Source of the DNA: Mesaphorura yosii
Taxonomy: Eukaryota > Arthropoda > Collembola > Poduromorpha > Tullbergiidae
Reading direction: 5' to 3'
Assembly: GCA_009869945.1 (NCBI GenBank)
Contig: WIXG01000334.1
Location: forward strand, 1-64,000
DNA: 64,000 nt
Positions 1 to 39,879 of this stretch are shown piece by piece. Made by a program: the position numbers and the translations under genes. The number at the start of each line of letters is the position of its first letter. Within the stretch, counting starts at the first letter, position 1. The notes under the pieces were generated by a model that was given only the letters and a program-made list of their open reading frames with translations, did not search any database and had not been told where the DNA came from.

Positions 1-1213
1 TGGCGAGAACAGTCCACGAATTATGCGCAAAATTAAAAAAAATTATTTCATACTTTTTATCGCGCCTCACCAAAGGAAGACCTTTTCCCTAGGAATATAT
101 TTTTTTTTATACTTGTAAAGAGAAAATTATTAAATGAAACTCAACGTCGGCGCTGGCCGAAGAATTATACAGTAAAATGCTCTCTTGCGGTTGGATAGTT
201 GTGGCCGTGTGAATAAATTACTCAAATCAATTCTTCCACATTCCGAATTATTTATTGCAGTTTCAATCTCTGGGAACAAATGTCTGGATCAATTTACTGG
301 GAACAATTTACTGAAGAAATGTCTTGGAACAATTTCTCTGGAAACAAGTAGCCTTAGCCTGAAGAAAATCTGCTCCAAGGAGCCAGCCTCTTCAACGACT
401 TCATTTCTTTCTGGCTTCAAGCTGCCGTCTGGTTCCATTAAGAACTTTAAGGAGGATGAGTGTAAACAGTTTGGACAGCAGAAATGCATTAAATTGCCTT
501 CTTTGCATGTTAAATCATCGGAAGGAATTTCACATGCAGAGGAGCCTACCTTAAAACTGATTGTTAAGGTCTGGTGTCTAGTTTGGCCTTGCCCTTGACT
601 CTCCGAAGAACTGGGAGCGCAACACAACGCACGTGGCCGCCTGCCGGCGACGACGAAGGCAGCACGCGAGGCACGTTCAGACGAAGAGAGATACCTGCTG
701 GTCGCTGGCTCACCTGTACAACTTGTCCGCTCTGGTTGCTGCATTGCTGATTGCTAACACTGACACTCTTTCAATGTCAATCACTCCATGATTTGCATAA
801 ATTCTAGGAAGATGCTGTCCTATAGTCTACTTCTTACGAAGCGTACGAGGCGGATGCTTAAATGGTAGAGCATTTTGATATAAAGTAATGGATACGAGGG
901 TTTCATGCGCAGCGTAGATTTTACATCCTCACAAACTGGTTGGATGAGTTACGTCTTCTTGGATTTTTTATTTACTTGCGTTTACGTTAATCTAGTGTGC
1001 AGCAGTTCAATTCGCATTCGCATTCTCGAGAATCGCAATTTTGCACTGAATTCAAAGAAACCAATTCACCTGTGAAAGGAAGGATTTTGTGCAATTGGCA
1101 AACTGCAGATCAGTTTGGGCTGCGATTTCGACACTCACACAGACACAAGCCACTTTCGTCTCCAGTTTTCTGCTGGCTTCAGAGGTTCCTGCGAAAATAC
1201 GATCTGATCAGCC
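1..1213. other. Upstream flank of the first protease gene; no gene supported
   Basis: No coding gene can be supported here. Open frames exist on both strands between about 185 and 744, but they show no recognisable domain and no splice structure, and they overlap each other. The stretch does hold a degenerate short tandem repeat near 268-352, listed separately. The 5' UTR and promoter of the protease starting at 1214 should lie in the last few hundred bases. I saw no clear TATA box. Confidence 0.5.
268..352. repeat. Degenerate ~14-bp minisatellite (GGAACAATTTCTCT-like), copy A
   Basis: About six imperfect units of 12-15 bp follow one another, with the core GGAACAATTT between CTG/CTC steps. 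The same motif series recurs at about 38918-38995, with one roughly 45-base run nearly identical between the two sites. The repeat keeps one reading frame open by chance, which explains the weak protein similarity between open frames at the two sites. It is read here as a small dispersed minisatellite rather than a gene. Confidence 0.5.
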
Positions 1214-4200
1214 ATGTCTTCAATATTTACTGCAATTATTATGCTTTTGACGGCTCATCTTGCCGTTGAAGTGGTAGGTAAGTTCCCGTACAATATTCGG
1301 ATGGGTCTTGTGGATCTTAGTTGGCAAAACTCTATTGAGTTTGCTTGTCTTTCAGGTGAAGAACAAGAAACGCTATGCCAGACAATCGGCCCGAACAACG
1401 AAACGGTTCATGGATTCTGCATCAACATCAAATCGCAACTGAAACAGTGTCCATCTCATTACAATCTCCTCAAGAACAGAGATTGGGCCCAGCTCCGTAG
1501 GCACATTTGCAACACTAACAATAAGCGAGTCTGCTGTCCACTTAATGAATTCAACGAAATTCAAATAACGGAGGAGGAGCGATTGAATCGAATCAAGTTC
1601 CAAGAACATCCAAACTTCCAGCATTTACCTTCTCTGCGGTCATGTGGATTGTCATTTCACTCGTCGGTTGATAAAATCATTGGCGGCAACACTTCGCTTC
1701 CTGGAGAGTTTCCGTGGGTGGCCCGAATTGGAATGCAGAACGAAGAGGACGGCTCAATTAGTTACACGTGTGGAGGAAGCATAATTTCTAAGCGGTACAT
1801 TTTGACTGCTGCGCACTGCTTCAAGCAGCCACACTTGACACTGTAAGTAAGCCAAGTGCCAAGGTACGTAGATAAACGCTGATCGATGCCTTCTGCAGAG
1901 CACACGTTCGAATCGGACAATCGAAGTCGGACGAACATAAGAAGGAAGAATGCATAGAATTCTTTGGTCGACGAAGTGAAAGAGAAATAATTCCCGTTGC
2001 ATGCGCTGAGCCAATTAATATGGACATTGAGGAGCTTATTTTGCATCCAGAATACACAAGGGAGGTGGGATCAAACGCCGATATTGCGCTTATTCGGCTT
2101 GCAGCAGACATTGACATCAAATCACGTAAGTCAGCCGCTTTTTATTCCCAAATTACTCGAACTTTTGACACAACACAAACTTCCAGTTTATTTTCAAAAT
2201 AACGAAACGGTTGATTTATGGCACAGGTTTCGCAATTTAATTGAGCAGTCATTCCGCTTGGCTCCTTTACTCATTGCTCACGTCATGTTTTGCGCAATCC
2301 AGGTGACGTATTTTGAGACGCGAGTCTGCAGTGACAGAAAAGTAATTCTCAAATTATTAGAAGGAACAGGCCAATTGGAACGACCGTGGCCAATTCCAGT
2401 ATTGCAAGCACTTGGCCCTTACATAAACTCCTGGAAATCCAGGCTCAGCACATCGAATCTATGAAAAGTAGGAACAATAAATTTTAAGTCCGGAAGTCTT
2501 AGAAAGGTAGGAACTTACTCCCCAAGAGACAACGCCCACGACTGACCACTTTCCGTTAATATCCAGCTGCAAGGGTCCTCCTGAGTCCCCTTGACAGCTA
2601 TCGCGTCCGCCTGCCCGCACGCCAGCACAAAGATTGGTTTGCTGCACAGAAATTAAAGCATATGTTTAAAGTTTAGCCTGCGTGAGTGTCCAAGATAGGC
2701 TGACTGGGAGCATACGAGAATTGGCTGTGTATACGCAGATTTGCAGTCGTCTTGCTTCCAGATTGGGACAAGAACTTCCATCAGTTCTGAGGATGAAGGG
2801 CCTCCGTAGTATCTAGAAGGATTGCAACGCAAATGCATTATTTAAAGCTCTAGAATTGAGATACTGAGAATGTTATGACATTTACATGGATCCCCATCCA
2901 GTAACGATTCCGACTTCGTTCACAAATCCTCCATCAATCCGTGGCAGGCAAATGCTCTTCATTTTCTTGTGATAAAACGCTGATTTTGCGAGCTTGAGTA
3001 TGGCGATGTCGTTTTCATACGAATACCTGCCCAAATAATTAATAATTACTCTACTTTGTTGGATGTGAACTATGCTTAGCATTTCTCCTTTGTGCTCACC
3101 GATTGTAATCTTCGTGTGGCTTGATGCTCTCCACAACAAAATCTCTCCTCGAATCACTCGTAGAATTGAAACTGTACTCTCCAAGCCGGACCTTCAACTC
3201 TTGAGGAGCATAACTGCAAAAGGACATTTACAAGCAATGCAATGCATTAGTTGCCACCGCTCTGAGCTAGCGTAATTGATAATTATAAAATTAACGTCTT
3301 TACCCGTCGACACAATGCGCGGCTGTCAGGATATGAAATTCGGAGATAAGAACTCCTCCACAGTATTGCCCGGCGCGAACGTCGTCGCTAGAAGTTGAAA
3401 TCATGACAGCGTTTGCGTTAGCGGAAGGTTGAAGAAAATTTAATTGGACAATCTTACTTTGGAGCACCACTCTTTAGTAAAGCCGCCATCCATGGCCAGC
3501 TTGTCGGATCCGCCTTTCTGCCTCCAACCACTCGAGAGATTTGTTTCTCGCTGTAACCACACGTTGGAGTGTTGACTTTGTCGACTTCCTCGCTTGGAGG
3601 AAAGACGAACGGTTCTTCGGTTGCGGTTGCCTCGGCCTCCTCGTCTAGTTCGGGCTCCGGTGTTGTAGAAGTGGCCGTGCCAGGGCCTTGTGTGGGTCTG
3701 GGCTTCTTCTTTCCACCGCCGCCCCCTCCTCCTCCACCACCACCGCCTCTTCTATTCGAGCAACATACTCCTACGTAACGACGCCCGATGGGGCAGGCAT
3801 ATTGCAAGAAAGTCGCGTAGTCATCCTTGAACTTGTTCTTAACGCAATGCTCAACATGGCGACACCGTCCACCTCTGCCTTTTGGCGTCCTGCACTTGCC
3901 GTAGGGACGATCTTCCTGTAAGAGATTCGTATATCAGCTGCGGGATCAAAAATCATCCACCGAAGGTTCGATTTTCTTACTGTTTGGTGTCCAAAGAACT
4001 GAAAACGAGTGCCTCCAAGGATTGTCGGAACATTCACGCCCGATCCATTGAATTGCTGTTCATTCGGAACCCAGTTCAATCCCAACTCTTCTACTTTGTT
4101 GTCTGACGTAGCGAATTCAAGTCGATGCGTGTGTTGATAATCTTGTATCAGAGGCCGTAACCACGCGGTGATGGCGGCGAGACCGCCTTGGTCATGTCGA

Positions 4201-6099
4201 TGCCCTTGACCAGGGTGACCTTGACCATGTCCGGGAGCACCTTGCCCATGATGCTCGTGGGAGTTGAATTCGTGGTCGTGTCTGTCATTTGGGTGCCAGT
4301 GATCGTGATCTCCGTGCCAGTGCCCATGATTTCCGTTGTTCCACTGATTACCATTGCCACGATTCCCATTCCACTGATTACCGTTCCCACGATTCTCGTT
4401 CCACTGATTACCGTTCCCACGATTCTCGTTCCACTGATTACCGTTGCCTCGATTCCCATTCCATTGGTTACCGTCGCGATTTCCATTATTCCCTCCTCCG
4501 GGTTGACTGGGCCTCAAATTGATGCCCAAGCCGTCCAAATTGATGCCCAAGCCGTCCAAATTGAGATTTAGCCCTCCGGGATTTGATCCGATGTTCCCCT
4601 GCCGGGGATTGTACACCCAAGTACCTCCATGTCCGTGGCCTCCTCCCTGGGCAGATCTTCGACCAACGCTGGATAATAAGCTTCCGATTTGAATTTGAGC
4701 GAATGCTGCACACAACAAGTATATTAGATAATCGGCACTGCGGACCGCTAAATGTGAATTAATTACCGTGTTGGAGTTTGTAATCAGCTAAGAATGCTAG
4801 TAATACAAAAATGGCCTGCAGAAAGTGTGAAAGATTCATTGCAAAATACAAAGACTCGATTTGCGAGACAGATCCGCGGATCCTTCACCTGTTGACTCTT
4901 AGCTGGAAATGCGATCTGCGGTGTCGTCACTCGTCCGTTCCGTCATTAGAGCAGACTTGATTGGCATGCGAGCATGCATGGAGCAGGCAGGCATACTAAT
5001 TAAAATACACAGGACAGGTTTTGAAGCGCAGGCGATTTTTTGCAAATGACCATTGACCATGGACCTTGCATGCGAAAATTCATTCTCGCCAGCCTCTCAC
5101 TCGCGTATCCGCCTGCAGAATGTCACAGCACAACACCTTCTGACGTACCTGATGCGGTGTCGGTGTAGTTCACCTTGCGTGTCCATTTGTTGATCTAGCA
5201 CTTTGACTTTGTCTTTGCTCAGAGGCTCTTGCAAAGTATTGTTGGACAAAATTCAAAATGAGACAACTTACGTAACAACCTGCTTTGTGTACTCACGTAA
5301 ACTCTTCGTTGTGATTCTGAGAACGCTTGTTTTTCGGACAAGCAGGTTAAAAAAGGAGTAATGTACCTGTTTTCGTTGGAAAATTTATCCCATTGATTGG
5401 TCCAATGAATTTCATAGCTACTTTACCAATTAAAAAGTAGAGATAGAATTTTGGATTGAATCCCTTGTTTACTTGCAGATTTCACAAAGCCGATTTGCCT
5501 TCCATTTCTGAATGAGTATCACGTAAAGAATCAGCTCCAGGAAATCAGCACGCTGAGGGATAATAAAACATTGGTGGCTGGATTCGGAAAAGTTCACAAT
5601 GGTGAGCGACTAACAGTGACCAGTGCTTCCTCGTTTGTAGAACCTCACCCAGCAGAATAACTGCTTCCTGGACTTATATTTGGATGCATTTTTCAGATGA
5701 ACAAGTCGGCAGCTCAACTCTGCAGTTCGTCCGATCGCCCATTCAGCCAAATATCATGTGCCGAATTTCTTATCCCAGCTTCAATGTGACCGCAAACCAG
5801 GTAAATTGTAAATTGTGAATGACTAAATGAAGTTTTCGGGCATTTTTGACCTCTTCACTCCTATTCCCTTCTAGATATGCTCTGGAGGATTGACTGGCAG
5901 CGGTTCCTGCTTGGGAGACTCAGGCGGTCCACTCTTCCTGCCAGCAACGCCAGAGCGAGGACCCTCCAGATCAATTCGAAGTTTCCAGCTCGGAATTGTG
6001 TCGTACGGCAAGACACGATGTGCGCAGGGAAATGAGCCCGTTGTGTACACAAAAGTGCGGAGCTACCTGCCTTGGATTTTGGACAACATCCGACAATGA
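1214..6099 (+). CDS. CLIP-domain serine protease (host of a nested gene)
   Basis: Secreted chymotrypsin-fold zymogen of 409 residues. Exons: 1214-1277, 1356-1842, 1899-2125, 5479-5601, 5697-5800, 5875-6099; all junctions are GT-AG and in phase. Residues 1-21 form a signal peptide. A CLIP domain has its six cysteines at 29, 43, 53, 73, 81 and 82. The zymogen cleavage site is K128 before IIGG. The triad is His175 (TAAHC), Asp245 (ADIALIRL) and Ser351 (GDSGGP). The S1 pocket is not trypsin-like: position 189 is Gly and position 226 is Val, suggesting an elastase-like preference. CLIP proteases act in haemolymph cascades (clotting, melanization, Toll activation), but the substrate here is unknown. 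Intron 3 (2126-5478) contains another protease gene on the opposite strand. A poly(A) signal AATAAA lies at 6156-6161. Confidence 0.92.
1278..1355 (+). other. Short stop-free intron 1 of the host protease
   Basis: This 78-bp intron begins GTAAGT and ends TTTCAG. It is a multiple of three and has no stop in the host frame, so retaining it would insert 26 residues between the signal peptide and the CLIP domain without breaking the protein. Splicing is the default reading, because removing it places the CLIP cysteines right after the signal peptide as is usual. Confidence 0.6.
2278..4839 (-). CDS. Nested CLIP-domain serine protease with Asn/Gly/His-rich repeats
   Basis: Secreted protease zymogen of 632 residues, lying wholly inside an intron of the plus-strand protease. 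Minus-strand exons: 4839-4767, 4705-3981, 3915-3458, 3387-3304, 3213-3100, 3026-2886, 2812-2716, 2641-2519, 2458-2423, 2325-2278. The start is followed by a hydrophobic signal peptide. Residues 25-266 are rich in Gly, Asn, Trp and His and include 10-residue tandem repeats. The CLIP cysteines are 274, 284, 290, 307, 317 and 318; a poly-Gly run and an acidic linker follow. Activation is expected after R394 before VVGG. The triad is His443, Asp491 and Ser584, and Asp578 in the S1 pocket makes it trypsin-like. A minus-strand AATAAA at 2192-2187 would end the transcript about 60 bp from host exon 3. It shares two late intron positions with its host, so the two are old paralogs. Confidence 0.93.
4341..4490 (-). 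repeat. 30-bp tandem repeats coding for Asn-Gln-Trp decapeptides
   Basis: Five head-to-tail 30-bp units (4341, 4371, 4401, 4431 and 4461 onward) lie in exon 2 of the nested protease. The units starting at 4371 and 4401 are identical; the outer ones differ by a few bases. Each codes for ten residues of the form [10 protein letters not shown]. Identical neighbours imply recent duplication or conversion, so copy number may vary between individuals. Confidence 0.9.
4518..4565 (-). repeat. 21-bp tandem repeat coding for DGLGINL
   Basis: A 21-bp unit is repeated about two and a quarter times in exon 2 of the nested protease, giving the heptad DGLGINL twice after a related NLNL lead-in. It sits just upstream (in protein order) of the Asn/Trp decapeptide repeats and belongs to the same low-complexity region. 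Confidence 0.85.
4840..5478. other. Rest of host intron 3; candidate promoter of the nested gene
   Basis: No coding sequence is seen between the nested gene's start and host exon 4. This roughly 640-bp block must hold the nested gene's 5' UTR and promoter on the minus strand, plus the host's branch point and acceptor on the plus strand. I found no convincing TATA box. Confidence 0.55.
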
Positions 6100-6538
6100 T
6101 TTTCAGACGCGTGATGCAAGAATGTTTGCAAGTAAAATCCACCAAAGAGTTTAGGAATAAAGGCTGAACCATTTATTAATGTTATAATTGTATCACAGGG
6201 CAAATAGCGATTTAATTTCAGTAGTCATACGGCGACTCGCGCAACGTGAAAAAGTAACGTGAAAAATTAATTTCTCACTGAGGGGCAGGACGCATAATTG
6301 CATAATGAAAAAAGTGCACGTGCAATAATTTGTACAAAGTCCCTGACATTACTAAAATTACATTACAACCGCGTAAATCGATCACTTGGTCATCGATGAT
6401 GAAGTGACGATGACATATTTTAAGCATGAAGGGATGCAAACAAGTAAATTCATATTCTAAGATGTTAATGTAAGGAAAATATTGACGTATTGATTATTAA
6501 TTGCGCTTGGCTTAATAAGTTAGTAGTAGAATTAGCAA
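6100..6538. other. Convergent 3' UTRs of the host protease and the AN1/UIM gene
   Basis: The plus-strand protease stops at 6099 and the minus-strand zinc-finger gene stops at 6539, so both 3' UTRs run into this 439-bp gap. A plus-strand AATAAA lies at 6156-6161, and the only minus-strand AATAAA I see is at 6177-6172. If both are used, the two mRNAs overlap or abut tail to tail. Confidence 0.55.
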
Positions 6539-7668
6539 TTAGGTGACTTGGCAGTTTCGCTGGGACTGGTTCCTGGAGCGGTTTTGTGAACTTGCAGTTC
6601 GCTGGGCTTCTCGTTCGCTTTCTTGGAGTGCTCGGGCAAGGAGGAAATCCGCTTGCTCCTGTGATAGAGCCTGCGTGGAGTTGGAAGCTGCAGCGGGCCT
6701 ACCGGCCGCGCCCGATTCAGCCATTGACGCTTGGAGGGCGAGTTGCAATGCATCATTTTCAGACTACAAAATCAAACAGAAATTCACATGCCAGACAAAT
6801 CACGATGAGTAGTTAATGCAGTCAGCTGCAATGACACTTACAAGATTGCCCTGAATATTAGCTTGACTGTAGGATCCGGCGGCACGACCCGCGTGCCCGT
6901 TTGCCGTGGAACGACCTTTCGGTGGTTGAGCTGTGGCGCCTGAGCTGCGGCCAAGAGCAGCCAGGGCAGCTTTGCTCAAGTGCTTAGAACCAGCAGGCGC
7001 TGTGCAGGCGTGGTCAGGTGGGAGTCGGTGCTTCAAGCAATAATTTTGTCCGCAGTTCTCGCAGACCAATGGAATCATTTCCTTTTGTTTGCAACCTTTC
7101 GATGAGCACTTGTTGGAATAAACTTTCTGCAATTTATAGAAACGGGAACCAAAATCAAAATAGAATTTATGCACTGTTCTTTCATATCTGAACTTAGTTT
7201 AAACAATTTCTAACCTTCCGTTGAGTCACGGCTCGATCTGATTGGCACTCTTCATCGATGTGTCGACTCACTCTTATGTCAGGCAACTCGTCGGGACGAC
7301 CAGGGACTGGAGAATTGCATAGAGGACACACTGGAACTTGAACATTTTTCTGATATGCTAGTGGACAGCTGTGAGCTTCGTATTTGTAATGATCAGAGCT
7401 AAACAAGTAAAATGAATGCATTACAAAATCAGCACCGTTTAATTTGTACCTAATATAAACCCAATTGAGTTATCGGGTATTACTGACTGATCCCTGATCA
7501 CTTACCAAAAAATCTTTTTGCACGCATCACATTTGACTGGCAGGAAATCTGAAAACAAAAATTATTGAGTTGATATAAATCCTTAACAAGGATCAAAGCA
7601 ACTGTTTACTTACCCAACTGGCGACACGAAGATTCATTACAATGCTTTCCCAAGCCTGGAAACTCCAT
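6539..7668 (-). CDS. ZFAND2B: AN1-type zinc finger and UIM protein (AIRAPL/ZFAND2B-like)
   Basis: Proteasome- and VCP-linked ubiquitin-binding protein of 263 residues. In the AIRAP/AIRAPL family these proteins work in protein quality control. Minus-strand exons: 7668-7614, 7548-7506, 7398-7215, 7126-6842, 6763-6539. Two AN1 zinc fingers are clear: the first starts CNESSC and continues CDACKKIFC...H...HSC; the second starts CSSKGC and continues CENCGQNYCLKHRLPPDHAC. The last exon encodes two ubiquitin-interacting motifs (around ENDALQLALQASMAES and EQADFLLARALQES). The protein ends CQVT, which fits a CaaX prenylation box as in the membrane-anchored AIRAPL branch rather than the stress-induced AIRAP branch. 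It points tail to tail at the protease locus. Confidence 0.92.
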
Positions 7669-8416
7669 GTCACTCAATTATCAATGAATTAAATCACGTC
7701 GCGCTGCTATCTTTAATTTTCTCAGGCTTATCGAAAAGGTCGCTAGGCTAATTTAATACAGTCAAGCTGTAATTTAAAACACTTTGGAATTTTGTCGGAG
7801 TGTAAATTTGCACTGCACGTGTGAACTGTTCGAAGGCTTTATCAGTACTGGGGACTTGACTGGACGATGACTTGGCTATTTAGCTGTTGGCTGATGAATT
7901 TCGCCACTCCAATGCTGAGCACTGGGCTGGGTAATGAACCTCATTCTGATTCTGAGGCAGCGCAGTTGTTGGTGCGGAATTAAATACGTTCTCTTCGAAT
8001 TATGATTCAGTGCACTCCTTTTGAATGACTCTGCACATTCACGTGCCAATGCAAGGAACGTGTGATCATGAACGAACGATGACGCAACAACAAAGTGAGA
8101 ACCTTCGAGCTCAATCTCGACTTTCGACATGTCGGAATGGCTGAAATTGGGTGAATCAGCTAAAGTTTCGACCACGACGTCGACGTAGGTGAAATGTCAA
8201 ACTGATGAGTACTGTTCTTGCTGGTCACGAAATTCATGGATTTTACTCGGGTGAATTGACCCAGGCTCATTCACCCATTTTTACCTTTTTGTGGTAAAAA
8301 CTTAAGGTAGGATGTCTAAAAATGCGCTTCAAAGCCTTACAATGATGCCCTTCGACAAACTGGACATGAGGGCACCCCAATGTTTTGCAAAAACCCGTGC
8401 AAAAAATGCAAAAGTG
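7669..8416. other. Intergenic: promoter side of the AN1/UIM gene
   Basis: This holds the minus-strand upstream region of the AN1/UIM gene. An open frame on the minus strand at 8175-7876 (99 codons, with an internal ATG at 8130) has no recognisable domain and no splice support; it could be an upstream frame or chance. The T-runs expected of a Pol III terminator for the neighbouring tRNA gene lie at its right edge (minus strand, about 8413-8401). Confidence 0.45.
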
Positions 8417-8537
8417 TGTCAGAAGTGGGATTCGAACCCACGCGGGATGTCTCCCACCAGAAATCCCAGACGCAATGCACTTTACATTGCAAGCTTTCGC
8501 TTGAGTCTGGCGCCTTAGACCACTCGGCCATCCTGAC
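8417..8537 (-). tRNA. trnL-CAA: tRNA-Leu(CAA) with a 28-nt intron
   Basis: The minus strand starts GTCAGGATGGCCGAGTGG and ends GGTTCGAATCCCACTTCTGACA, giving a full acceptor stem (GTCAGGA with TTCTGAC), A-box and B-box promoters, and the long variable arm of a class II leucine tRNA. The anticodon CAA is at 8503-8501. The intron follows base 37 and runs 8499-8472; its ends could shift by one base. The intron folds with the anticodon, as described under findings. Runs of T just downstream (minus-strand TTTT then TTTTTT) would terminate Pol III. Confidence 0.96.
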
Positions 8538-9387
8538 AGCTTAAAGTGTAAGAGCATTTTTTGCTGTACTTGAAGCAAGCCGGGTCTCCAGTACGAGCAG
8601 TGTACTGAGCTGAATCGTTGAACGATTGCCAAAAGTTTTGTATGCGCATACGCAAATGTAATGCATAATCGCTTGTGAAACAAATCAACTGATCTTGTAA
8701 AAATCTCAACTCAATCCATTGTATGACTTTATATGCGTACGATTGACTAATTACAGCTTCTCTGAATGAAGAGTTTATCGATAAAGAACGTTGGGTCTTC
8801 TCTTCGTCTCGGCATGATAAACTGAATCAATCTTCGCCCATTTGATCGCAATCATACGGAATAGCGTCAATTTCTGCTGACAGTCCATGAGGACTTCATT
8901 ACACTTAATGAAGAGATACGTCTCAATTTTACCATGTCGATTTCGTTAAAAATGATCAAATGAGCCAGAACTTTGGATGCTACAAATAAAATCAGATCTG
9001 CGATGATTCTGCCGGTATCGATTAAAGTATCAAATGAGGTTCATCAAATCATGAAGCTTGACAGCCACGAGCTACGAGTCACGACTTTTCCTAAACGGTT
9101 AAACGGTTAAACAGTAAAAGGTTGAACAAGTCGAACTTGATTTCAATTCTGATTCTTCTCAATATCAGCAATCAGCGAGATCGAATAACAGTTTCGTTTG
9201 TTTAACACTTTGTTAATTAAGCCTAGCCAAGATTGCATGAAATGATCTTCCTCTTCGTTTCATTACTAGTTATAAAGATGTCATCGATTTATTTATAAAT
9301 AGGGGGCCGAGACTGGCCCAATTTTCACTCAGTGTTGATGGTCACGTCAAGTCATTCGAATCAAACCAGCGTAAAAAAGTTAAAAGC
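8538..9387. other. Intergenic between the tRNA and the peroxidase
   Basis: No gene is seen. A short direct repeat of TAAACGGT-like units occurs near 9095-9125. The right end carries the peroxidase core promoter, listed separately, and a 57-base 5' UTR. Confidence 0.55.
9294..9333 (+). promoter_or_regulatory. Core promoter of the peroxidase gene (TATA box and initiator)
   Basis: TATAAATA at 9294-9301 is followed by TCAGT at 9329-9333, the arthropod initiator consensus. The spacing from the first T of the TATA box to the initiator A (9331) is 37 bases, slightly longer than the usual 30 or so. The first ATG after it, at 9388, is the peroxidase start, so the predicted 5' UTR is about 57 bases. 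It is the only clear TATA-plus-initiator promoter I found in this window. Confidence 0.6.
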
Positions 9388-12300
9388 ATGAAGACAATCT
9401 TCCTCGGTGTTTGGTACTGGCTTTCTTGCGTGCTGGCTACCAGTTCCAGCTCCAATTTCGTTCAGGATCCGTACACTCAGCCCTATTCAGTAAATCTACA
9501 TGATAGTCCAACAGATCAAGTCGTTGCATGTGCAGTTTTGTAAGTTTGCATCAAAATTGTCAAATTACTGAAATTGCTGTACACTGCCAACGTCGAACTT
9601 GACATTTTCCATTTCCCAGGATAAGTGACGAGCAGAGTACGACTCCAAGTTACCATTCACCACCACCGCCATGCATTTCCACTGAGTTTATTAACCGTGC
9701 ATTCACGGAAGCTCGGCTTCGTCACGGACTTAAACACCCGATTCCGTACAAAAATCTGGAAAAGCATGCGAATGAGGTGGAACTCCTCGCGTTTGTGCTG
9801 CTGGACACGAGCAGTGCCATTGCACATCACTACGGGCTGGATCCGGATCAAATCTTCGAGCTCCTTCCTAGACTGGACATTAGCCGAACGGATATCGCGA
9901 AATTCTGCCCGATTCCGGTCCGAACTCCCGCGCAAAAGCATTGCAAGGTAGAGCAGAATATTTGCAGGGCATGCTTACTCTCCAGGGAATCCACTTTACA
10001 CTTTGAATTTACAGCTTTCTGCGTACCGCACACTCTCCGGCCATTGCAATAATGTGTATCATCCTCAATGGGGAGCCGCTTTCACTCCATTCCAGAATTT
10101 CTTGAGCCCACATCATCCCGATGGGTTAAGCGAGCCACGAAGCGTTGGCGTTGGCGCTGGCCTTCGATTACCATCAGCAAGACTCGTGTCCCAGCACATT
10201 CACCACGACACTCGAATCGTCCATGATCATGCTATTACAACAATGCTGATTGCATGGGGGCAAATAATTGACCATGACATCACACTGACAGCGGACACTC
10301 AAGGTAAAATTCTGTTGAAAAATGCGCCTGGCGGCCTAGAGTGCGACGAGAGTTTGCTATTTTTAGATCCCAGAACGTTTAAGACACCAGAATGCTGCCA
10401 GGCACCTTCCTTGCCATTTGAGCATGTTCATCATAATTGCCTCCCCATCGAAATTCCTGCTACTGACCCATTGCTTGGTCACAGTGGTCACGGTCATGGT
10501 CAATCGTGCATGTCATTCGCAAGATCGCTGGCCGGACTTCGCCCAGACTGCAGACTCGGTAAATGGCATTTACTTTTCATGAGAATTTTCGTAAAATCGT
10601 AATGCCTCACTCAGTTTCAGTTTTGTGTTCTCGCGTTGACAATTATGACTGTACAGGAACTCGGAAAGCGTACACCCGTATCAGTTCTTTTTTGGACGCT
10701 AATTTCGTTTACGGGACCAGCAAGAAATTAAACATGGAACTGAGAACTGGGAAGTACGGGTTACTAAAATCTAACCGGGCTTTTAGTGAACTCGGACTCC
10801 AAGACCTGCTTCCTCTGAAAGTGCACGAACCAGACCGGGAATGCATTCGAAAGGATGAGTCGCAGTTCTGTTTTCAAGCTGGTAAGATTTGGCAATTGAC
10901 AATTACTAAAAATGGCTCCGGTGAATGATTTGACATATGACTCACGCAATTCTTTTTTCATGCCGCAGGTGATATTCGTGTTAATGAACAACTCATTCTG
11001 ACTGTTCTGCACACGATATTTATGAGAGAACACAACCGACTGGCCAGGCGACTTGGAGCCATCAATCCGAATTGGGACGACGAACGCCTGTTTCAGGTTA
11101 GTCCCAGGCAGTGCTCTTGCATTTACTTTCTGAATTATAGCCGCATTGCACGTTGTTATTCAAGGAAACACGGCGAATTATCATTGCAATGGTCCAACAC
11201 ATCACCTTCAATGAATTCCTGCCAATGGTGCTTGGAAAGCATACGATGCAGACGTACGGACTCATACTCGCCACTAAAGGGGTAGGTTGAGACAAAGTTT
11301 TGAGTCTTCATCATTAGTGCAACTTAAACTTCACCTTTCCCGTCCTTTTGTAGGATTTTTGGGATGGTTACAATCCGCATCTGGACCCAACCGCCTCCGA
11401 AGAGTTTGTGTCGTCAGCCTTCAGGTTTGGACACTCGCTGCTTCCGCACAAAATCGAGCGGTGGTCGCATGGACATCATTTTATTGGTAAACTACGCATT
11501 AATTAATTAAATACTAATAGCCAATGCAGTGCCATAAAGACTTGGGCACTTGGGTTATTTGGTTTGCAGATTCTCAAGACCTTCATCAACTGCTACGGCA
11601 GCCATTCGATTTGTACAAACCAGGCACGCTGGACACTTACGTCCTGGGGCTGGTCAATCAGTTGGCGCAGGCAATGGACGAAGGTGTAACGGTAGAAGTA
11701 AGTTTCAATCGCCACAGGAGTGGTGGTAATAACAAATTGTAGTCAGTTGCTTGTGTTGCTTCTTCGAATTCCATACGATTGAGTACGAAAATGCTGTTAG
11801 AAAGTTGATACAATCACAGAATTGGCGACGTTAAAATCATTTCTATTCTCTTTCAAGACCGAAAGCAAATTGTCTATTTTCCTTCCGCAACTATTTTCAG
11901 CGAGCTTTATTTGTGCAGGTGACGAATCTCCTCTTCAAGGAGCCAAACCAATCACATGGCATGGATTTACCAGCTATAAATATCCAACGTGGACGCGAGC
12001 ACGGAGTACCCAGCTTCGCTTACTACCGCCACTTCTGCGACCTGCCACCAATTTCAGAGCATTGGGACGGTCTGGTCGGTGTTTTCAGAAACGAGACAAT
12101 TTACCGCTACCGAGAAATCTACGCTTCACCCCACGACATTGATTTGTGGTCCGGGGGCTTATCAGAAATTCCACAGCATGACTCGTTGCTTGGACCAACA
12201 TTCAATTGCATCATCGCCAAGCAGTTTTATCTGCTGAGGGCCGGCGATCGGTTCTGGTACGAGAATCCCAATTATCCGTCCAGTTTCAGATTAGGTAAGG

Positions 12301-14014
12301 TCACAGAGCTAGGGATTGAATATTGAGTAGATCATTTAACACAGTATTGTGTGCCTTTGCTCCAGATCAAATTGACGAAATTCGCAGCGTGACACTTTCA
12401 CGCCTGCTCTGCGATAACACCGACGACCTCAAGACAGTACAGCTGTATGCGATGGTCTATCCGGATCTTATCACGTGAGTGTCATGCCAAGCGTCGACAT
12501 GAGTAGAACAGCCCAGCAAAACCTAGCCAGTTAGGGAATTTCTTCGTCGTATTACAGAAATCCGCGAGTTTCCTGCTCCGGCCGAATAATTCCAAGAATG
12601 AACCTGGAGAAATGGAGAGAAAATGTTCCGGAAATCTTCAACACGAGTCTTTATCATTTGAAATCTCAGACCCACGAGCACGAAGATGACTACAGCGTGC
12701 TTGCAGTTGCGGGTCACCCGAAGGCATGTACAGTACAAAGTGTTGTATCTAATCTGCCCTCAAATCAAGTATTTTTATCAGCATAATTATTTATTGCTTT
12801 CCCACTGCCACTGCACGGCTGGCACGGCACGGCATGGGTCATGGGGCTCATCTCGTTTTCCAACGTAATAATATATTTCCGTTTCCTTTCCCTGTCGATT
12901 TTCCATCCTTTTTAACACCATGCACGAACACAGGCACGACTGCATGACATCACGATCACGGCACAAGTTTGGGGTGTATTCTTTTAATAATTCCTGGGTT
13001 CTCGCTTTGCAGGAACCTGGAATTGGAATCGCGACTGCTCCACTGATCCCCTTGACCGATAAGCATAGTTTGTACTACCACAACCACATCGACAATCATT
13101 ATCATCATCACCAGCACCAGCAATCACTCTCACCATCACCAGGCGATCAACCCGATTTCAATTCCATCGAACCGCATGAATACCCGTTTAACAGCTACGG
13201 CGGTGGGTTGGTGGAAGGACTGCAACTTGGTGTTGATGAAGGTTACGATGCTGGCAATTACGCAAAGACACAGGAGTATAATCACCATTATTTTGGTGCT
13301 AATCACGGGTTGTACAACCAGAACAAACACTACGGCCTTCACGGCAGCCACGACCACGATCAATTCGCCGGCATTGGCGTTGGCCTCGTCGGTGTGGGGC
13401 CGCGGCCGGTGGGAGAGGATAATTATCGGTATGAGCCTGGTAATGATATACACGACGATAATTATGATGGTTTAATTGAATCACCAGCACCACAACTGCC
13501 GCCTTTCTTGAACTTGAATTATGCGCATGAATACGAGTATAAGCACCAGCAACAGCAGCCGAGTTATTTCCCAATTTCTCCGGTTCTCAAGCCACCAATT
13601 CAACCACATCACAAAGGTCATGCCCAAAAAACTCCAGACTCATCGGCGTACCCGATTCCGGTGAATCCTCATTATCATAATGAGACGGAGAGCAGGCATC
13701 GGTACCCAGATTTGGGCTCAGTGCATCGACCGATTGAAGTGCACGAACTTCGGGATCTTCTCCATCAAAATCAGGGTCAGGGCAAATACCTAAAAGGAGA
13801 AGCTGGTCGTGAAGCCTACGTCGAACGCATTCCACCGACGAAAAACTACAAGCAAAGTTCAAGCAGGAACGCCCAGCGAAGGAATTCCCTCCCGAAACCA
13901 TTCCCAAACTCGCCATTTCCTGGATTGTCCGGTATTTTCAGCCCAAACCCGGGATATTTGGCGAGACAGAAGTTTTATCTTCCACTGCACTTGAATTTGA
14001 GGCAGAGAGGATAG
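9388..14014 (+). CDS. Secreted animal haem peroxidase with a probable His/Tyr-rich C-terminal exon
   Basis: Animal-type haem peroxidase, nearest to the chorion peroxidase/peroxinectin group, which oxidises tyrosines or small phenols outside the cell. Exons: 9388-9539, 9620-9947, 10015-10558, 10657-10881, 10969-11096, 11165-11281, 11354-11486, 11570-11697, 11919-12294, 12366-12474, 12558-12768, 13013-14014. A signal peptide opens the protein. Key motifs: distal haem WGQIIDHD with His247, calcium-site [18 protein letters not shown] at 436-439, proximal FRFGHS with His525, and NIQRGREHG. The last junction is the uncertain one: without it the protein stops at 12786 (822 residues); with it the protein gains 333 residues rich in His, Tyr and Pro (1150 in all). 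The in-phase donor after CAA at 12768, the strong acceptor at 13012 and the only nearby AATAAA (14202-14207) favour splicing. Confidence 0.85.
12769..13012 (+). other. Uncertain last intron of the peroxidase gene
   Basis: The donor GTATTT is weak. In-phase alternatives exist at 12732 (GTACAA) and 12744 (GTATCT). The acceptor CTCGCTTTGCAG at 13001-13012 is strong and phase 0. If the intron is retained the reading frame ends at 12786. This is the one junction in the gene that RNA evidence must decide. Confidence 0.5.
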
Positions 14015-25900: not shown

Positions 25901-28900
25901 AAGCCAAGCCAGGTGCTTTCACCTGTGCGCGTACGCTTCCTGAATCTGGAATGAAATCTCATGCGTGCATAAATGAATGGGCATTTTTCACGGCAGGGCA
26001 GCACTGAGCAGAAAAGGCAAATGTCAGTGGCAAAAACTGCAGGGAATTCTGTCATTCTGCAGTTTCACGGGGTTGGAGGGTGCAAAGTTGCCGACGCTGA
26101 TGATGTTTATCAACTCACTTGAATGACATACTTGTCAATATTTATAATTGATTTGTTCCATATGTCGAGCCCAATTTCATGGGTCCTCGTAAAAATTTCA
26201 TGGAGGATCCAACTCGGCGTGGCAGGCTGAAGAGCAGCCCAGCCACTTTGTAAAAAGGGGTAAGGCACATAGGATTTATGAATCCCAGTTCCGCAAGTCA
26301 CAAGCCAAGTTTATTAACTGCGTCCAATTTACTGAGACACTGAGAACTTTACGCTTTTAGCATGCGAATTTTTTGGAAATCGAGCATCCATTCGTTTATT
26401 CATGATGAATTTACTCCAGCGAAGGTGAAAGGTGGGAGTGATGGCTTAAATGAAGCATGACACGGATACACGATCACGCAATTGATTTTAAAAGGGTTAA
26501 AATGATAATGGAAAAGTAATGGTTCGTTTTTGTTGGCAAATTTGCACGTAAGCGACTAGAAAACATGAACCCACTTCCGACGCGACGTTGACAGCGGCAG
26601 CTCTACTATGAATAATGCACACGCAAAAGGGTATAAACATGTTTGGAGACAATCAACGCGATACTGGCGATACGCGCAATTAAAAACACATGGAACATGA
26701 AATTCTACTTTTCGCTTGAGTTTAATGGAGCTGCTGCTGGAATAAAACATGATTTTTGGACTCCTGCTGTGCAGAGAAGAAAAACGCTGGGAATTTAAGA
26801 TTCTTCAACTCTTCCATGTAATAATTAACCAATTAGCAATGTTCTTTCTTCATTTCAGGCGCTACTCCGTCAATGGATCTCATCGAAGCAGTTCGAGCAA
26901 CGGAAGTGATTACCCACACCACCCGGCGCATGAGGGACGATGTGGACGCTGTGGAAACAGTATTGGATCTCAGGAGCTCGTCATGCGGGCGAAGGAGCTG
27001 GTTTTCCATCTTCACTGTTTTGTGTGTGTGATTTGTTTGCGTGTCCTTAACAAAGGTGAGTTCACGTCAGCGTTTGCCGTCCAGTAAACAAATGAATGCA
27101 TGAATCTCATTTATTCAATTGACGGGCACGCGCACGGGTCTGCATGCATGAAATTCCATGAATTCTGATCTGATCGTGGCGCGCCGCGGATCGCGGTTGA
27201 AGATGATTAATAATAATATCATTCCTATTACCATTACGTTAACGGGATTACCATTCTCCTTTCTTTCTCTTCCTTCTGGGGCCTGCCCTTTGCTGTTCCT
27301 GCTGCCGCCGATGTTTTCCGTGCCCGGTTGCTGCTGTTTTCCTGACACAAACATCGACCGTCCACGCTAGGTGACCACTTTGGAATGCGATCGTCTGCTC
27401 TTTACTGTGCTGAGCATTTCGAGCTGATTGAACCCCGCCCACCTTCACCTCAACCAAGTTTCTTCAATGGAGCTGGATCTGGTCAGAAAGGACGACCGAG
27501 GAAGCGGAATAAAGAACCTCAAGACGTCGTACTCACCACGCCTTGCGGTAAGCCAAATAAACGCAGCGTAGCCGTAGCGGTCCTGGAACCTTTAACAAAC
27601 ACATTACGAATTACGACTTTCGACTACTGCATTATTAACTTTATTAAATGACTTTCCTTTGAGGTTCTCCTCTGCGGACGGCAAAGACCAAAGTTAAAGG
27701 CAAAGTGAAGTTTCTTGTAAAGTGCCGAATGCCGACCAAGGCGACTTTCCTCGTTATTCCGGCCGACCAAGGCGGTTACGCCAGATTGCAACAATGCACT
27801 CTGCACTGGCATCATGTTCTTTCTGTGTTGCGGGTACAACAATGCTAGGCACGGCACGACCGACTACAAACCACATAATAAGCGTAACGCGTAATGAATG
27901 ATGATTGTTTCAAATTTCAAGCCCTCATTTTCTTCTTAAATAGACACATTACAGCAGCGGTTTGACTTTTGAATCGCTTTAACGATGCGATGGGCTGCTA
28001 TTTTCAACGAATTTCGTCAGTTTAGTTGGACGGTGTCTCTTTAATCACGTCAGTGGGTCCGACAATGACAGCAACGCCGTCATTGTTCTACTTGAGGAGT
28101 CATATTTAAGGAGTCGAGTCTGAACAACGAGTTCGCATTGCATTGGGTTTGGCGTTTCACTGTTTCGCATTTCGCAAGAACGTCTGTCGCGTTTCTTGTC
28201 GTGGTCTTGGCTTGTATTTTTGACAACCTGTACTCGAACTCTACTCATGTCTTCTCTTCTTGCTTGGGGGAGGTGCGAGCGAGCTGCTGAGTTTTATGCA
28301 AGTTTGCCAGTTAACAATGTCTGAATCCGTGTCTGACTCGCAGCAATGACAACTGAAACCTGACTTGGTGTAGACCTGATTATAATTTTACGCATTGTCT
28401 ACTTCAATATTTCACATGTGGCTAAACCGCGCTTGACGCGTTGGCCTTGAACACATGAACAGCATCGTCCATCCTCGCATGGGACTCAGCGAGCGAATTC
28501 TTGTCGAATTCGTGCATCTTGCCCTTTATTACGACACGGCGGCTCTTATCGCATCACGCAGTTAATAACTCTAGTTAGCGTGTTCATGGCGAACGCGAAA
28601 CGTGTATGCGTACGCATTGTTTCCATTCGAGCAACAATAGCACAGGAACGAAGAAACCGGAAGTCGTATTTAACGTTAAATACCACCAACGCATTGCGGC
28701 ATTGCGTTGTGCTGGTGGACTTGCGTTTGTTTTAGTTTAAGGATATTTCTTGGCGTTTGTTCTTCTTTTTGTTTCTCGTTCATCCACTTCACGACTTCCA
28801 CAATGGCAATACAACAGAACGCAATGCAATGATCAAATTCAAAAGCGAAGGTAATGGGAGAGGAAACACATGTGCGTGCATTGCGTGCAAGCTGGTTCGA

Positions 28901-30992
28901 GTTCGAAGCTGGAGCTTCATGGCAGTGGCGTGTCATTCACGCTGGGGTTAACCATAATCATATAATATGGCTCACCTCCCAAATTTAAGTTAAACTGTGC
29001 TTGTGTTGGTGGTGGCGGTGGTTGGCTTCCACTTTGAATGAATTTGAAGCGGAGCGGAGGGTTGAAATACTGCGTTATATTTGCTGTCTTCTTCTTTAGG
29101 GTTGACGATTTTATTTCTCTCAAATTGCAACTACTTCGAGACGCAAAGAGGCACCCAAGACTCCGAGATGCGTAATGCGTAATTCTGTCCTTACAATTTT
29201 AAAACTCCATGCATTATGCGCTCACTTTAGGCTAAGAGTGATTACCACTGCCATTGCCGACGTGAATGTCGTTGTCACGCTAGTTTACCGCAGATAATAC
29301 GAGCTTTGACATTTCCTTCTGCTCTGGTCAAGCCAAACTTGAGAATTTTCGGTCTCGACTTGGGATGAAGAATATGAGATTGGTTACATTTCGGGAGAAA
29401 AATGCCATGTTGTTATTTTCTTGTGGTTTTGTTTTCGACTCGAATTACTCTGTCAAACGGTAAAAGCGAAAGCAATAGCAAAATTAAAACAACACGAAGA
29501 CGGATAGGAGATTATGGACTCTTGTCGCTGTCGTTTGCAATGGCGGCTTCCGTCTGTTTACTTAATTACTTTTGACATTATTTGGTCGGTCCACCCTCAC
29601 ATGCATCGCAGTCTGCAGTGCATTTTCGGTTCTCGGTTGTGGTCGACCGGAAGAGATGAGAAAGGAATTCCAGGAATTGGTCGGCACTCTTACTTCACAC
29701 GTTTTCACAAAGTTTAAGTTTACATTTCTTATTCGTTCATTCTTGTTTGCATTGCAGGCGATTTGATGGGGACACCACCGTCCGAGTCAGTTGGCGGTGT
29801 CCTAAGACTAGTTGAAGGCGGTGGTTACGAGTCATCCTCCTCATCCTGTCCCGGTGGTGCTGCTGGACAAAGGACGAAGCGAATGCGAACTTCATTCAAA
29901 CACCATCAACTACGAACAATGAAGTCTTACTTTGGCATAAATCAGAATCCAGACGCAAAAGACTTGAAGCAGTTGGCACAGAAGACTGGCCTCAGTAAAC
30001 GAGTCCTGCAGGTACAAATATTACAAATGTGTTTGTGCACTTGCACACTGAATTTGCATATTTACGTATTTTTATGGGCTAAAGCGGATTAAACGCAGTT
30101 TTGAGATCTGCCGCTTGCCAGCGTTAACAAATTGGCATCGAGCCTGAGCTTGAGCTCCAATTTGTCGTCGTGTCATAATCTTATTTATCAACGAATTTAC
30201 AATACAAATTTACATAAGCCATGAATTTGTACTTTTTTAACTTGATGCAGGTTTGGTTTCAAAATGCACGAGCAAAATGGAGACGAAACACGATGCGTAA
30301 TGACAGCGGAGGCAAATCTGGTAAGTCGAGACCTTAATCATAGTAATTCGTATCAAGTTAGCGTGTAGCGTGTATCAAGGGAATATCGACGAACCCTTGC
30401 GCTTCTGCTTCTTTCTCCTCGTAGCCGAAGCCATGGCGTAGCCCATTATTTGCATTGCGCATTACGCATTACTTCCTTTCTCTCACGCGCTGAGTTCACT
30501 TTCTCTGGCTCGCGCTTGTAATACGAAGCCATGCGTTCGGAGCATGTTTTTCCACGGAATCATTCCCTTTGAAGGCACGGCAGGCACCTGCTGCCCGTCT
30601 TGCCTTTTCTGTTTACACATCATTCGTACTTTCATTTCAAAGTCAATTCAAGCGCAGCGCAGTGCCATCAAATTATGGATATTTGTGTTTATGTTTATAG
30701 TATTTTGTAGTATGTTGACTTTCACCGCCAAGCCAAAGCCAAAAATAAATTCTCTTTTTTCTTGCAAGATTGCAAGGTGCTTTGCTTTATGCAACGTTCA
30801 ATTAACATGTGCATATTTTTCTCAGGTGGAACAACTCCGACACAGCACGACTCTGATCTCGGTCAATCAACATCGTCACAAGACCTGCTCCTGCAGCAAA
30901 CTCAGCTTCAGAACGGTCTTGGGAGCGGGTCGCTAATTCACCATCAATCGCTCTCCGATAATGAAGGCGGATTCTCGAATGATATCTACTAA
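22975..30992 (+). CDS. ap: LIM-homeodomain transcription factor, apterous/Lhx2/9 type
   Basis: Nuclear transcription factor of 353 residues. In arthropods apterous specifies dorsal appendage identity and certain neurons, with its LIM domains binding the Chip/Ldb cofactor. Exons: 22975-23085, 23161-23246, 26859-27055, 27371-27547, 29758-30011, 30251-30320, 30826-30992. An in-frame TGA at 22948 sets the start. LIM1 (from CSGC at about residue 10) includes the family-typical DRYYLLAVDRQWH; LIM2 begins at C94 (CGRC). The homeodomain (about 228-287) contains KRMRTSFKHHQLRTMKSYF and, after an intron at the usual 44/45 position, VWFQNARAKWRR. Compared with relatives, the stretch before LIM1 is very short and the LIM1-LIM2 linker has a Ser-rich insertion of about 20 residues. 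The C-terminus is Gln/Ser-rich and ends SNDIY. Confidence 0.95.
23247..26858. other. Intron 2 of the apterous-type gene (3.6 kb)
   Basis: The intron lies between the two LIM domains, with GTGAGT at the start and TTTCAG at the end. No embedded gene is supported. In LIM-homeobox genes large early introns commonly carry enhancers; none can be placed here from sequence alone. Confidence 0.55.
27548..29757. other. Intron 4 of the apterous-type gene (2.2 kb)
   Basis: The intron lies between the LIM2/linker exon and the homeodomain exon. No embedded gene is seen. It contains copies of the 8-mer GCGTAATG at 27889-27896 and 29170-29177 (with an overlapping partial copy to 29183), reported as an observation. 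Confidence 0.5.
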
Positions 30993-36384: not shown

Positions 36385-38108
36385 TTATAATGAAGTCATC
36401 GCCGGTGGCCGTGCGTAGGCTTTGGGGACAAACCCGTACTTCCTCTGTTTTGGCGCGTAGGCCCACAACCATCCTTCGACGGGCTGACAGGTCAAGTCGG
36501 CGTAAACCCAATCACCCCGACGAACTGAAAGATCATCACTAACTTGAGCCTATGAACGAGAATTCAATAAATCAGTCATTAGCGACCAGTTCAAAAGTTA
36601 CTACTTAAAAGGCTGAGGCTGAGGCCAACTTACTTTGTAATCGTACAGCATAATAAGTTCAGTGCCGGCCTGCTTGTCCTCAGGAGACTGACCGCCCGGA
36701 GCCGACATCAGCGCTGGCAAAGACGTGGAAGTCGCTATTGCCGTGTTAGCACCCTGCCCCGAGCCAGAGGCAGGATTAGCAGCCGAATTGATGGCCGGAA
36801 TTGCGGTGATGGCGGACGTCTGAATTCTAATCGAGTCAGGCTCTTTCTGGTTTGTGTTGTAGTAATTGGAAGGCGAGATCGGAGTGGCAAGAGCGGCAGA
36901 AGAATTCGTCATGCCTGCCGTGACTGCAGGCATGGAGTTGGCTATGTGCAAGGCTGATGTTGCGGTAATTAAACTATTAACATTAAAGTTGTGCACAGCG
37001 GATGAAGACGGGTATGGCAGTGTATGTGAATGTGGATGCTGTTGATGGTGTTGCTGTTGAGGATGATGGCCGTAGGCATGTGGGCCGTGCCCGTGTCCGT
37101 TCATCAGCCCAGACGACCCAACGTGACTGCCGTTCCCGTTGCTGCTGCTGCCTCCACTGCCGCTGCTATTCGGGACACTGACGATGAGAGGGTAAATGAA
37201 AGCTGCAGGCACAAATCCTTCTTGACCGTCATAATCACGAATTATCCAGTACCAATCCGGGTCATCTTTGTTGAGCACTGTGATGAGTTCACCGCGATTG
37301 ACGTTGATGTCGTTTTCGTCTCTGGCTGTGAACGTGTACAGCACGATAAACCTGCCGAGCGACGGATCCTGGACAGAACAGATAAGACAAACACACAATT
37401 AGTGCTAATACAATATTCATTTAATGTCAGTTAGCGAAGGGAACGTCCCCTGTTACTGTTACCTTGAAGAATGGATGAATTTCTGAGGACGCTGAGGCGG
37501 CTGAGACCATGGACGCTGCATTTGACGACGCGGTCGAATTTGTTTCTTCACGAGGAACTTTCCTGTTCCGACTGCTCAAGTGTTTATTGTTATCCTGGAG
37601 AAATGGTGTAATATAAGAGTATGGGATGAACCCTTCATTCTGCTGGCCCAGCGGTCGCCGTTCGTCGATGACATACGCCCAGTCGTTTTCGCGATACAAC
37701 AAAGACACCAAGTCGCCCTTCTTCACTTCCAGTTCGTCGTCTACGCAAGGTGTAAAGTCGTGCAGGACGAGCATGCGCGCATCGGGCGAAATTCCTGAAC
37801 ATCAAATCATGAATCATCTTTGCTGTCAAGTTGGGTAACTTGCGGCGGCCACCAGTCATTAATTAAATCGAAATGAAGCATTACCTGCTTCCTTTTCCAG
37901 TCCAACTCTGACGAGCGTTTCGATCGAGCTCGAGCCCGTGATTCTTCCCAGCTGTGGGATGCTGTGATCTTCGCCGTTGTCTGAAAAGACAAATTACACA
38001 CAAATAGAACTTCGATATTACAGATCGGGATTGTACTTTTCGCGTCAGCTTGGTGTTACCTTTCTTCTTTTTGTTTCGACGAATTCTCACTGGACACAAG
38101 AATGCCAT
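36385..38108 (-). CDS. Dlish: Three-SH3 adaptor protein, Dlish/vamana-like
   Basis: Adaptor of 458 residues. In Drosophila, Dlish (vamana) links the Fat-Dachsous growth and polarity pathway to the myosin Dachs at the cell cortex. Minus-strand exons: 38108-38060, 37980-37885, 37794-37463, 37368-36634, 36549-36385. The N-terminus MAFLCPVRIRRNKKKK combines a cysteine with a basic run. SH3-1 covers about residues 55-113 (MLVLHDFTPCVDDELEVKKGD), SH3-2 about 163-222 (FIVLYTFTARDENDINVNRGE, ending GFVPAAFIYPL), and SH3-3 about 393-455 (LIMLYDYK, ending YGFVPKAYARPP). A 170-residue Ser/Ala/His/Gln-rich linker separates SH3-2 from SH3-3. A minus-strand AATAAA lies at 36225-36220. The Dlish name rests on three SH3 domains and the N-terminus; another multi-SH3 adaptor is possible. 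Confidence 0.8.
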
Positions 38109-39309: not shown

Positions 39310-39879
39310 TTATTCGCCAGAGAGGGAGGCTGTTGCTGGGAGTGAAGCATACTCGTGGGATATTTCCAGCATTTGACGGAGACCTCTGTTCTCGACGCGG
39401 AGACTGCTAATCAGTTCCTCTTCCTCTAGAATGGCTCCTTCGTCTGCCTTGACCGATTGCTTCATGAGAGACTTCATCTTGCCGACCGGTCCTTCACCTG
39501 CACCTGCGGCCTTTGGAATTGTGCCAACCAAATCGACAAGCTTCTTGGTCATGTTCTCTGTGGATTGCAGTTCGGATATTTTTGTTCGGTATTTAGTCAT
39601 GACGAGGTCCAGAGCAACTTGTTGTTCCATAGCAATAAGACGCAGCTCTTGATTTTCTTCTTTGATGTCGGAGGCACTTCGAAGGTCAGGTATAGGACGG
39701 CTGGGTTGGTGGTCAGACCCGTGATTTCGATGGCTTCCGGCGGCTTGAGCAGGTTGCATCCCTAGAACCTCATCATGAATAGCTTGCATTTGGGAAAGAA
39801 GACTGTCGACACGTACTCCTTCAGTTTTAAGATTAGACGACAACAGACGAACGTTGCAAAAGGCTTCTTGAAATGCCAT
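39310..39879 (-). CDS. Fgop2: FGFR1OP2/SIKE family coiled-coil protein (Fgop2)
   Basis: Single-exon protein of 189 residues. Family members are subunits of the STRIPAK phosphatase-kinase complex, which restrains Hippo and related signalling. The match rests on two conserved blocks: ENQELRLIAMEQQVALDLVM followed by TKYRTKISEL (family form ENKELR...SALELIMSKYR), and LRVENRGLRQMLEISHEY near the C-terminus (family form LEQENKGLREILQITRES). Both are heptad-rich coiled coil. The N-terminal MAFQEAFCNVRLLSSNLKTE fits the family's first helix, so the ATG at 39879 is taken as the start. The protein lacks some of the middle length of the vertebrate proteins. It is divergent from HSD17B10, with 708 bases between the start codons. 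Confidence 0.85.
   Translation of the reverse strand: MAFQEAFCNVRLLSSNLKTEGVRVDSLLSQMQAIHDEVLGMQPAQAAGSHRNHGSDHQPSRPIPDLRSASDIKEENQELRLIAMEQQVALDLVMTKYRTKISELQSTENMTKKLVDLVGTIPKAAGAGEGPVGKMKSLMKQSVKADEGAILEEEELISSLRVENRGLRQMLEISHEYASLPATASLSGE

Follow-up and report, generated by a model that had tools for sequence, protein, structure and literature searches.

The window analysed here, the first 64,000 bases of an 85,730-base contig (C334; WIXG01000334.1) in the 93.0-Mb, 1,127-contig genome assembly of the springtail Mesaphorura yosii, contains a complete serine protease gene (the guest) on the minus strand inside an intron of a second serine protease gene (the host) on the plus strand. The host has six exons at 1214-6099 and a single frame of 409 amino acids. 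The guest has ten exons, running from 4839 down to 2278, and a single frame of 632 amino acids. All 14 introns, five in the host and nine in the guest, have GT-AG borders. The guest coding sequence (2278-4839) lies entirely within host intron 3 (2126-5478; 3,353 nt), on the opposite strand, and has a start codon, a stop codon and splice sites of its own. The coordinates and exon count given in a preliminary description of this locus are therefore correct. The nesting is real, and it is an unusual but known kind of arrangement. We regard it as very probably an ordinary opposite-strand nested pair, the members of which happen to share a large protease family and the guest of which was inserted into an old short intron.

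The host gene across the guest and the two predicted proteins

We examined the host junction (2125^5479) with a spliced aligner written for this analysis and checked on the host and guest models. The queries were not the host model itself but three paralogs from the same genome, A, C600 and C782, which are 40.6%, 40.9% and 37.9% identical to the host, respectively. The exons of A and C782 were originally found with the host protein, and the whole A and C600 proteins were used as queries; spliced models of distant paralogs were noisy upstream of the protease domain, and the protease domain was mostly used thereafter. Each of the three queries returned the edges 1842/1899, 2125/5479, 5601/5697 and 5800/5875. 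Aligned alone, the left half of the host covers residues 140-279 of A, 214-377 of C600 and 14-157 of C782, and the right half covers residues 285-432, 378-542 and 159-320, leaving 5, 0 and 1 query residues between them. When positions 2126-8000 were shuffled, the best score of query A in 20 trials was 245.4; the unshuffled sequence scored 414.7, and the left half by itself 222.7.

That 1214-2125 and 5479-6099 are instead halves of two genes, or of a broken pseudogene, with the guest lying between them, is a reading favoured by the unusual length of the intron (about 45 times that of its homologs) and by a host model that comes from genomic DNA. However, the two halves are complementary for all three paralogs, the frames are intact, the phases match, and a GTAAGT donor and a TTGCAG acceptor stand at an intron site shared with relatives. 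Moreover, neither half by itself could be an enzyme (His-57 and Asp-102 are encoded on the left and Ser-195 on the right). We consider a split host very unlikely; the alignments argue for one gene spliced across the guest.

Misassembly, in which the guest-bearing segment was wrongly placed in a short host intron, is conceivable in a draft of 1,127 contigs with the host only 1.2 kb from a contig start. Against this, the window has no N, the flanks of the guest match only themselves in the genome, no repeat of at least 25 nt within 1-9000 brackets the guest, and the host splice sites are continuous with the segment. An assembly error thus appears highly improbable.

Both proteins score well above the Pfam Trypsin cut-off of 20.6 bits, the host in two stretches (2.2e-41, 142.6 bits) and the guest more strongly (8.3e-61, 206 bits). 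The AAHC motif, the Asp-102 block and GDSGGP are kept in both, and by their sequences both are intact S1A (chymotrypsin-family) serine protease genes. The preliminary description had called them CLIP-domain proteases with intact triads, of which the triads hold and the domain assignment has to be softened. Pfam CLIP gave no match at E 0.001 with the whole host and guest proteins. It is the best match of their N-terminal pieces, yet at 18.3 bits (host) and 19.7 bits (guest) it stays below the 20-bit cut-off; paralog A reaches 54 bits against the same cut-off. Reading the translations by eye, we found in both a six-cysteine N-terminal module ending in CC ahead of the protease domain, which fits the six-cysteine CLIP pattern. 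Given these near misses, we call both proteins CLIP-like.

The best solved relatives of the host are PDB 2olg (prophenoloxidase activating enzyme I, PPAF-I; 3.2e-34) and PDB 2xxl (the protease known as Grass; 2.7e-33), and both alignments run unbroken through the host junction. The host differs from these CLIP-domain proteases by Gly-189 and by its sub-cut-off CLIP module. The list for the guest, searched with the first 266 residues left out, is headed by a trypsin and TMPRSS11D. Residue 189 is Asp in the guest, as in paralog A, and Gly in the host, which alters the specificity pocket; the guest is accordingly predicted to be trypsin-like and the host is not. Residue 226 of the host is presumably Val, and Gly-189 together with Val-226 suggests a shallow pocket accepting small residues. 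Both proteins are probably secreted as zymogens.

Origin of the guest and age of the host intron

Host and guest were placed in a tree of 38 rows together with 36 further genes; four models took the place of a mixed C23 model. The tree covers part of the family; the genome contains at least 177 exon-level trypsin matches. Eight rows, namely four C23 genes, A, C600, C782 and the host itself, form a clade supported at 100/98. C8 adjoins this clade (85/85), and the guest falls outside it, among unresolved branches; of the 35 inner branches in the whole tree, 16 are not resolved. Because the end branches of the host (1.12) and the guest (0.92) exceed the median of 0.71, the tree should not be taken as final. 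The two proteins are 30% identical and lie apart in the tree. The proposal that they are old paralogs of one protein family nested in antisense is supported.

The preliminary description went on to suggest a possible inverted duplication into an intron. On this reading, a duplicate of the host or of a close member of its clade would have integrated in reverse into the host intron and become the guest. The common protein family and domain order, the opposite orientation and the physical nesting are all in keeping with such an event. The two proteins, however, agree in 92 of the 303 columns of their alignment (gaps counted), and the guest is neither the sister of the host nor a member of its clade; forcing the two as sisters lowers the log-likelihood by 33.7 (p-AU 0.0144). 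The guest also lacks the clade intron before PICLP. The two late introns were previously described as shared. In the guest they lie at column 251 in phase 2 and at column 308 in phase 0; in the host, at column 254 in phase 1 and at column 311 in phase 0. Each time, three codons separate the guest intron from the host intron, and the first pair also differs in phase. No combination of column and phase in the alignment is common to host and guest. The phase-2 introns that follow His-57, at columns 87 and 101, adjoin alignment gaps. Judging from these comparisons, local inverted duplication is not a likely origin of the guest, and we give it very little credence.

The intron that holds the guest appears to be an old character of the family. 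A phase-1 intron with its split codon four codons before [PS][IV]CLP is present in five of the 11 genes checked: the host (3,353 nt), C23_1 (78 nt), C23_2b (68 nt), C23_3 (80 nt) and C8 (71 nt). The C8 intron is one column off in the alignment, and counting from the PICLP motif places it at the same codon. Five others (C23_2a, A, C782, C4 and the guest) have no intron in the stretch examined, and C39 carries one at a different place and in a different phase; the protease domain of C600 has none. With 15 rows of the tree labelled by hand, five with the intron and ten without, three changes suffice to explain its presence. The simplest account is an old short intron in the host clade and C8. Some members would have lost it, and a single enlargement, in the host, would have added the roughly 3.3 kb that contain the guest. 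Since the family intron is 68-80 nt long in four relatives, the guest most likely entered a short intron that already existed. The age of the intron can thus be separated from that of the nesting, which came later. The idea that the intron was gained together with the guest, suggested by A, C600 and C782, which have no intron at the host site, was rejected because three tandem C23 genes and C8 share the codon and the phase.

Several of these relatives have features of their own. Paralog A (C334, 80422-82034), a third CLIP protease, is a member of the host clade encoded on the host's contig and strand some 74 kb farther downstream; it lacks the intron that in the host contains the guest. Four modelled minus-strand proteases of the host clade form a tandem cluster at C23 352500-362400. 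The search match at C23:362044-362415 shows two in-frame stops, and the gene model has an intron in that stretch.

The closest relatives found for the guest are C4 (41-45% identity in two spliced alignments, the higher one noisy N-terminally) and C745 (40%). A query with the N-terminal part of the guest, repeats left out, matched only its own place in the genome, as did both intron flanks in a search with an E limit of 1 that passed over simple repeats and very frequent words. Repeats of at least 25 nt within 1-9000 comprise one direct family, inside guest exon 2, with no inverted pair. Carriage of the guest by a transposon or repeat was considered and rejected, as the flanks match only themselves and no repeat of that length brackets the guest. 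Host and guest of the same family need not imply local duplication, since independent insertion is enough given so large a protease family.

We therefore prefer independent insertion into the old intron, which can be pictured as follows. The host is a member of a small CLIP-type clade with an old phase-1 intron, normally of about 75 nt, four codons before PICLP. In the host lineage, a segment of about 3.3 kb carrying a complete multi-exon CLIP-type gene and its flanks would have come to lie antisense in that intron, leaving the host splice sites unbroken. The two genes would be independent transcription units, each with its own promoter. Transcription of the guest would start from the 640 bp upstream of 4839 and terminate at poly(A) signals close to the inner edge of the host intron, and the whole guest-bearing segment would be spliced out of the host transcript.

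Several points weigh against this account. The host, like the guest, is a model from genomic DNA. Masking the acceptor or the donor still joins the host halves through other sites, with scores of 406.2 and 401.3, respectively, compared with 414.7; because masked sites still allow a junction at a nearly equal score, it is the protein match that enforces the joining; for the exact borders of the intron we depend on the canonical sites and on the position shared with the relatives. Support within the host clade is moderate, and the host's own place has 82/12. The absence of the intron from A, C600, C782 and C23_2a calls for repeated loss or repeated gain. Finally, genome searches revealed neither a donor copy nor an earlier location for the guest.

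Transcription, feature map and neighbouring genes

Both genes have candidate poly(A) signals where these would be expected (Table 1), and neither TATAAA nor TATATA occurs in 4830-5479 or 1000-1215. The guest stop codon is 152 nt from host exon 3 and its start codon is 639 nt from host exon 4. The distance of about 60 bp formerly given between the guest 3' end and host exon 3 can be matched only by assuming that the transcript ends close to the signals at 2192-2187 or 2146-2141, and does not fit the stop codon. Cleavage usually occurs 10-30 nt from a poly(A) signal, and the distal guest signal at 2146-2141, if used, would put it near the host donor at 2126.

This geometry, with a host pre-mRNA that would be antisense to the entire guest, invites the explanation that selection has retained the nesting for a switch in which transcribing one protease gene represses its partner. 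The same geometry is common to all opposite-strand nested pairs, for example the 567 counted in Caenorhabditis elegans in the consulted passages of PMC12274878, and hence is no evidence of a special role; we judge a selected antisense switch unlikely. Likewise unlikely is a kept switch in which a trypsin-like guest with an immune or developmental role and the Gly-189 host are mutually exclusive, never both expressed in one cell. Mutual interference of host and guest transcription is possible, as in every such pair. The C. elegans pairs are reported to show on average less coexpression than neighbouring pairs, yet some hosts are induced by their nested genes (PMC12274878), and no significant expression correlation was seen among 109 human and 752 fly nested pairs, as cited in part of PMC3786989.

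Table 1. Positions of the host and guest features in the window.
Feature	Position	Strand	Evidence or remark
Host exon 1, start codon, signal-peptide-like stretch	1214-1277	+	ATG, donor GTAAGT, phase 1
Host exon 2, CLIP-like six-cysteine module, activation site K^IIGG, His-57 block	1356-1842	+	CLIP 18.3 bits, cut-off 20
Host exon 3, through Asp-102 block inclusive	1899-2125	+	Gene model, paralog spliced alignments
Host intron 3, 3,353 nt, GTAAGT...TTGCAG, phase 1, contains guest	2126-5478	+	Spliced alignments; 68-80 nt in four relatives
Host exon 4, KPICLP block, GFG block	5479-5601	+	Gene model, paralog spliced alignments
Host exon 5	5697-5800	+	Gene model
Host exon 6, catalytic Ser-195, stop codon	5875-6099	+	Gene model, motif scan
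Host downstream poly(A) signal AATAAA	6156-6161	+	Motif scan
Guest exon 1, start codon at 4839	4767-4839	-	Gene model
Guest exon 2, Gly/Asn-rich and His-rich, tandem repeats	3981-4705	-	Gene model, repeat search
Guest exon 3, CLIP-like module, poly-Gly linker, activation site R^VVGG	3458-3915	-	CLIP 19.7 bits, cut-off 20
Guest exon 4, His-57 block	3304-3387	-	Gene model
Guest exon 5	3100-3213	-	Gene model
Guest exon 6, Asp-102, ICLP and GWG blocks	2886-3026	-	Gene model
Guest exon 7	2716-2812	-	Gene model
Guest exon 8, catalytic Ser-195, Asp-189	2519-2641	-	Gene model, motif scan
Guest exon 9	2423-2458	-	Gene model
Guest exon 10, stop codon	2278-2325	-	Gene model
Candidate guest poly(A) signals within host intron: ATTAAA 2241-2236, AATAAA 2192-2187 and 2146-2141	2141-2241	-	Motif scan
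Presumed guest promoter region	4840-5478	-	Sole genome match is its own place; no TATAAA/TATATA

The repeat region of guest exon 2 (4293-4564) includes a tandem repeat at 4339-4474 with a period of 30 (15), 4.5 copies and 90% matches; at 4515-4564 a 21-nt unit repeats with 100% matches. Downstream, a minus-strand gene for an AN1 zinc-finger protein (Pfam zf-AN1) is placed tail to tail with the host at 6099-7198. Their facing candidate poly(A) signals (plus strand 6156-6161, minus strand 6177-6172) have 10 nt between them and, if used, would make the 3' ends overlap.

Farther along the window, an Rfam tRNA is spread over 121 nt of the minus strand (8417-8537) and probably bears an intron; ARAGORN, run with the bacterial code, lists none there. 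Among ten open frames of the window tested, a Pfam scan identified as other genes animal haem peroxidase (9952-10602 and 11835-12326), a LIM exon (26746-27087), a homeodomain exon (29718-30092), an SH3 protein (36601-37398), the SIKE family (39310-39912), a short-chain dehydrogenase (41141-41569) and Ariadne (43332-43856).

Comparison with known nested genes

Opposite-strand nesting is common in animals, to judge from the parts of the literature consulted. In addition to the C. elegans pairs, about 6% of Drosophila genes are stated to be nested in introns (PMC3786989), and 2,357 nested intronic genes are given for a ctenophore with a 110-Mb assembly (PMC8527503). The embedded pairs of the mosquito genomes treated in PMC3689595 are described as predominantly opposite in orientation. 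The literature matches listed, all under open licences, contain no earlier nested pair with an S1 protease inside another, which does not show that none is in print. The nest was formerly judged unusual for combining one family with opposite orientations. Unusual it is, and yet of a known kind, as same-family nested pairs have already been published for mosquitoes (PMC3689595, as far as consulted). A nest of two related proteases is also less surprising because the genome has so many trypsin matches.

The Drosophila pairs Gart/Pcp (PMC3160391) and tim2/2mit (PMC3786989) resemble the present one in that a complete protein gene lies on the opposite strand within an intron. They differ in the relation of the partners: Gart and Pcp are unrelated genes, by the title of Henikoff 1986, and tim2 and 2mit apparently have no functional relation, by the abstract of PMC3786989.

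Two cases from Aedes aegypti, both as presented in passages of PMC3689595, come closer. An intron of AAEL014407 (BCL11A-like) holds six paralogous genes, so that family members lie within the intron of a family member, as here; the embedded copies in that work tend to cluster together, unlike the single guest described here, which is distant from its host in sequence. AAEL011239 hosts its paralog AAEL011243, both short-chain dehydrogenases, and the pair is also nested in Anopheles gambiae. The mosquito pair belongs to another enzyme family and has kept its nesting in two species, and like the present pair it unites an embedded gene and a host of one gene family in an arthropod.

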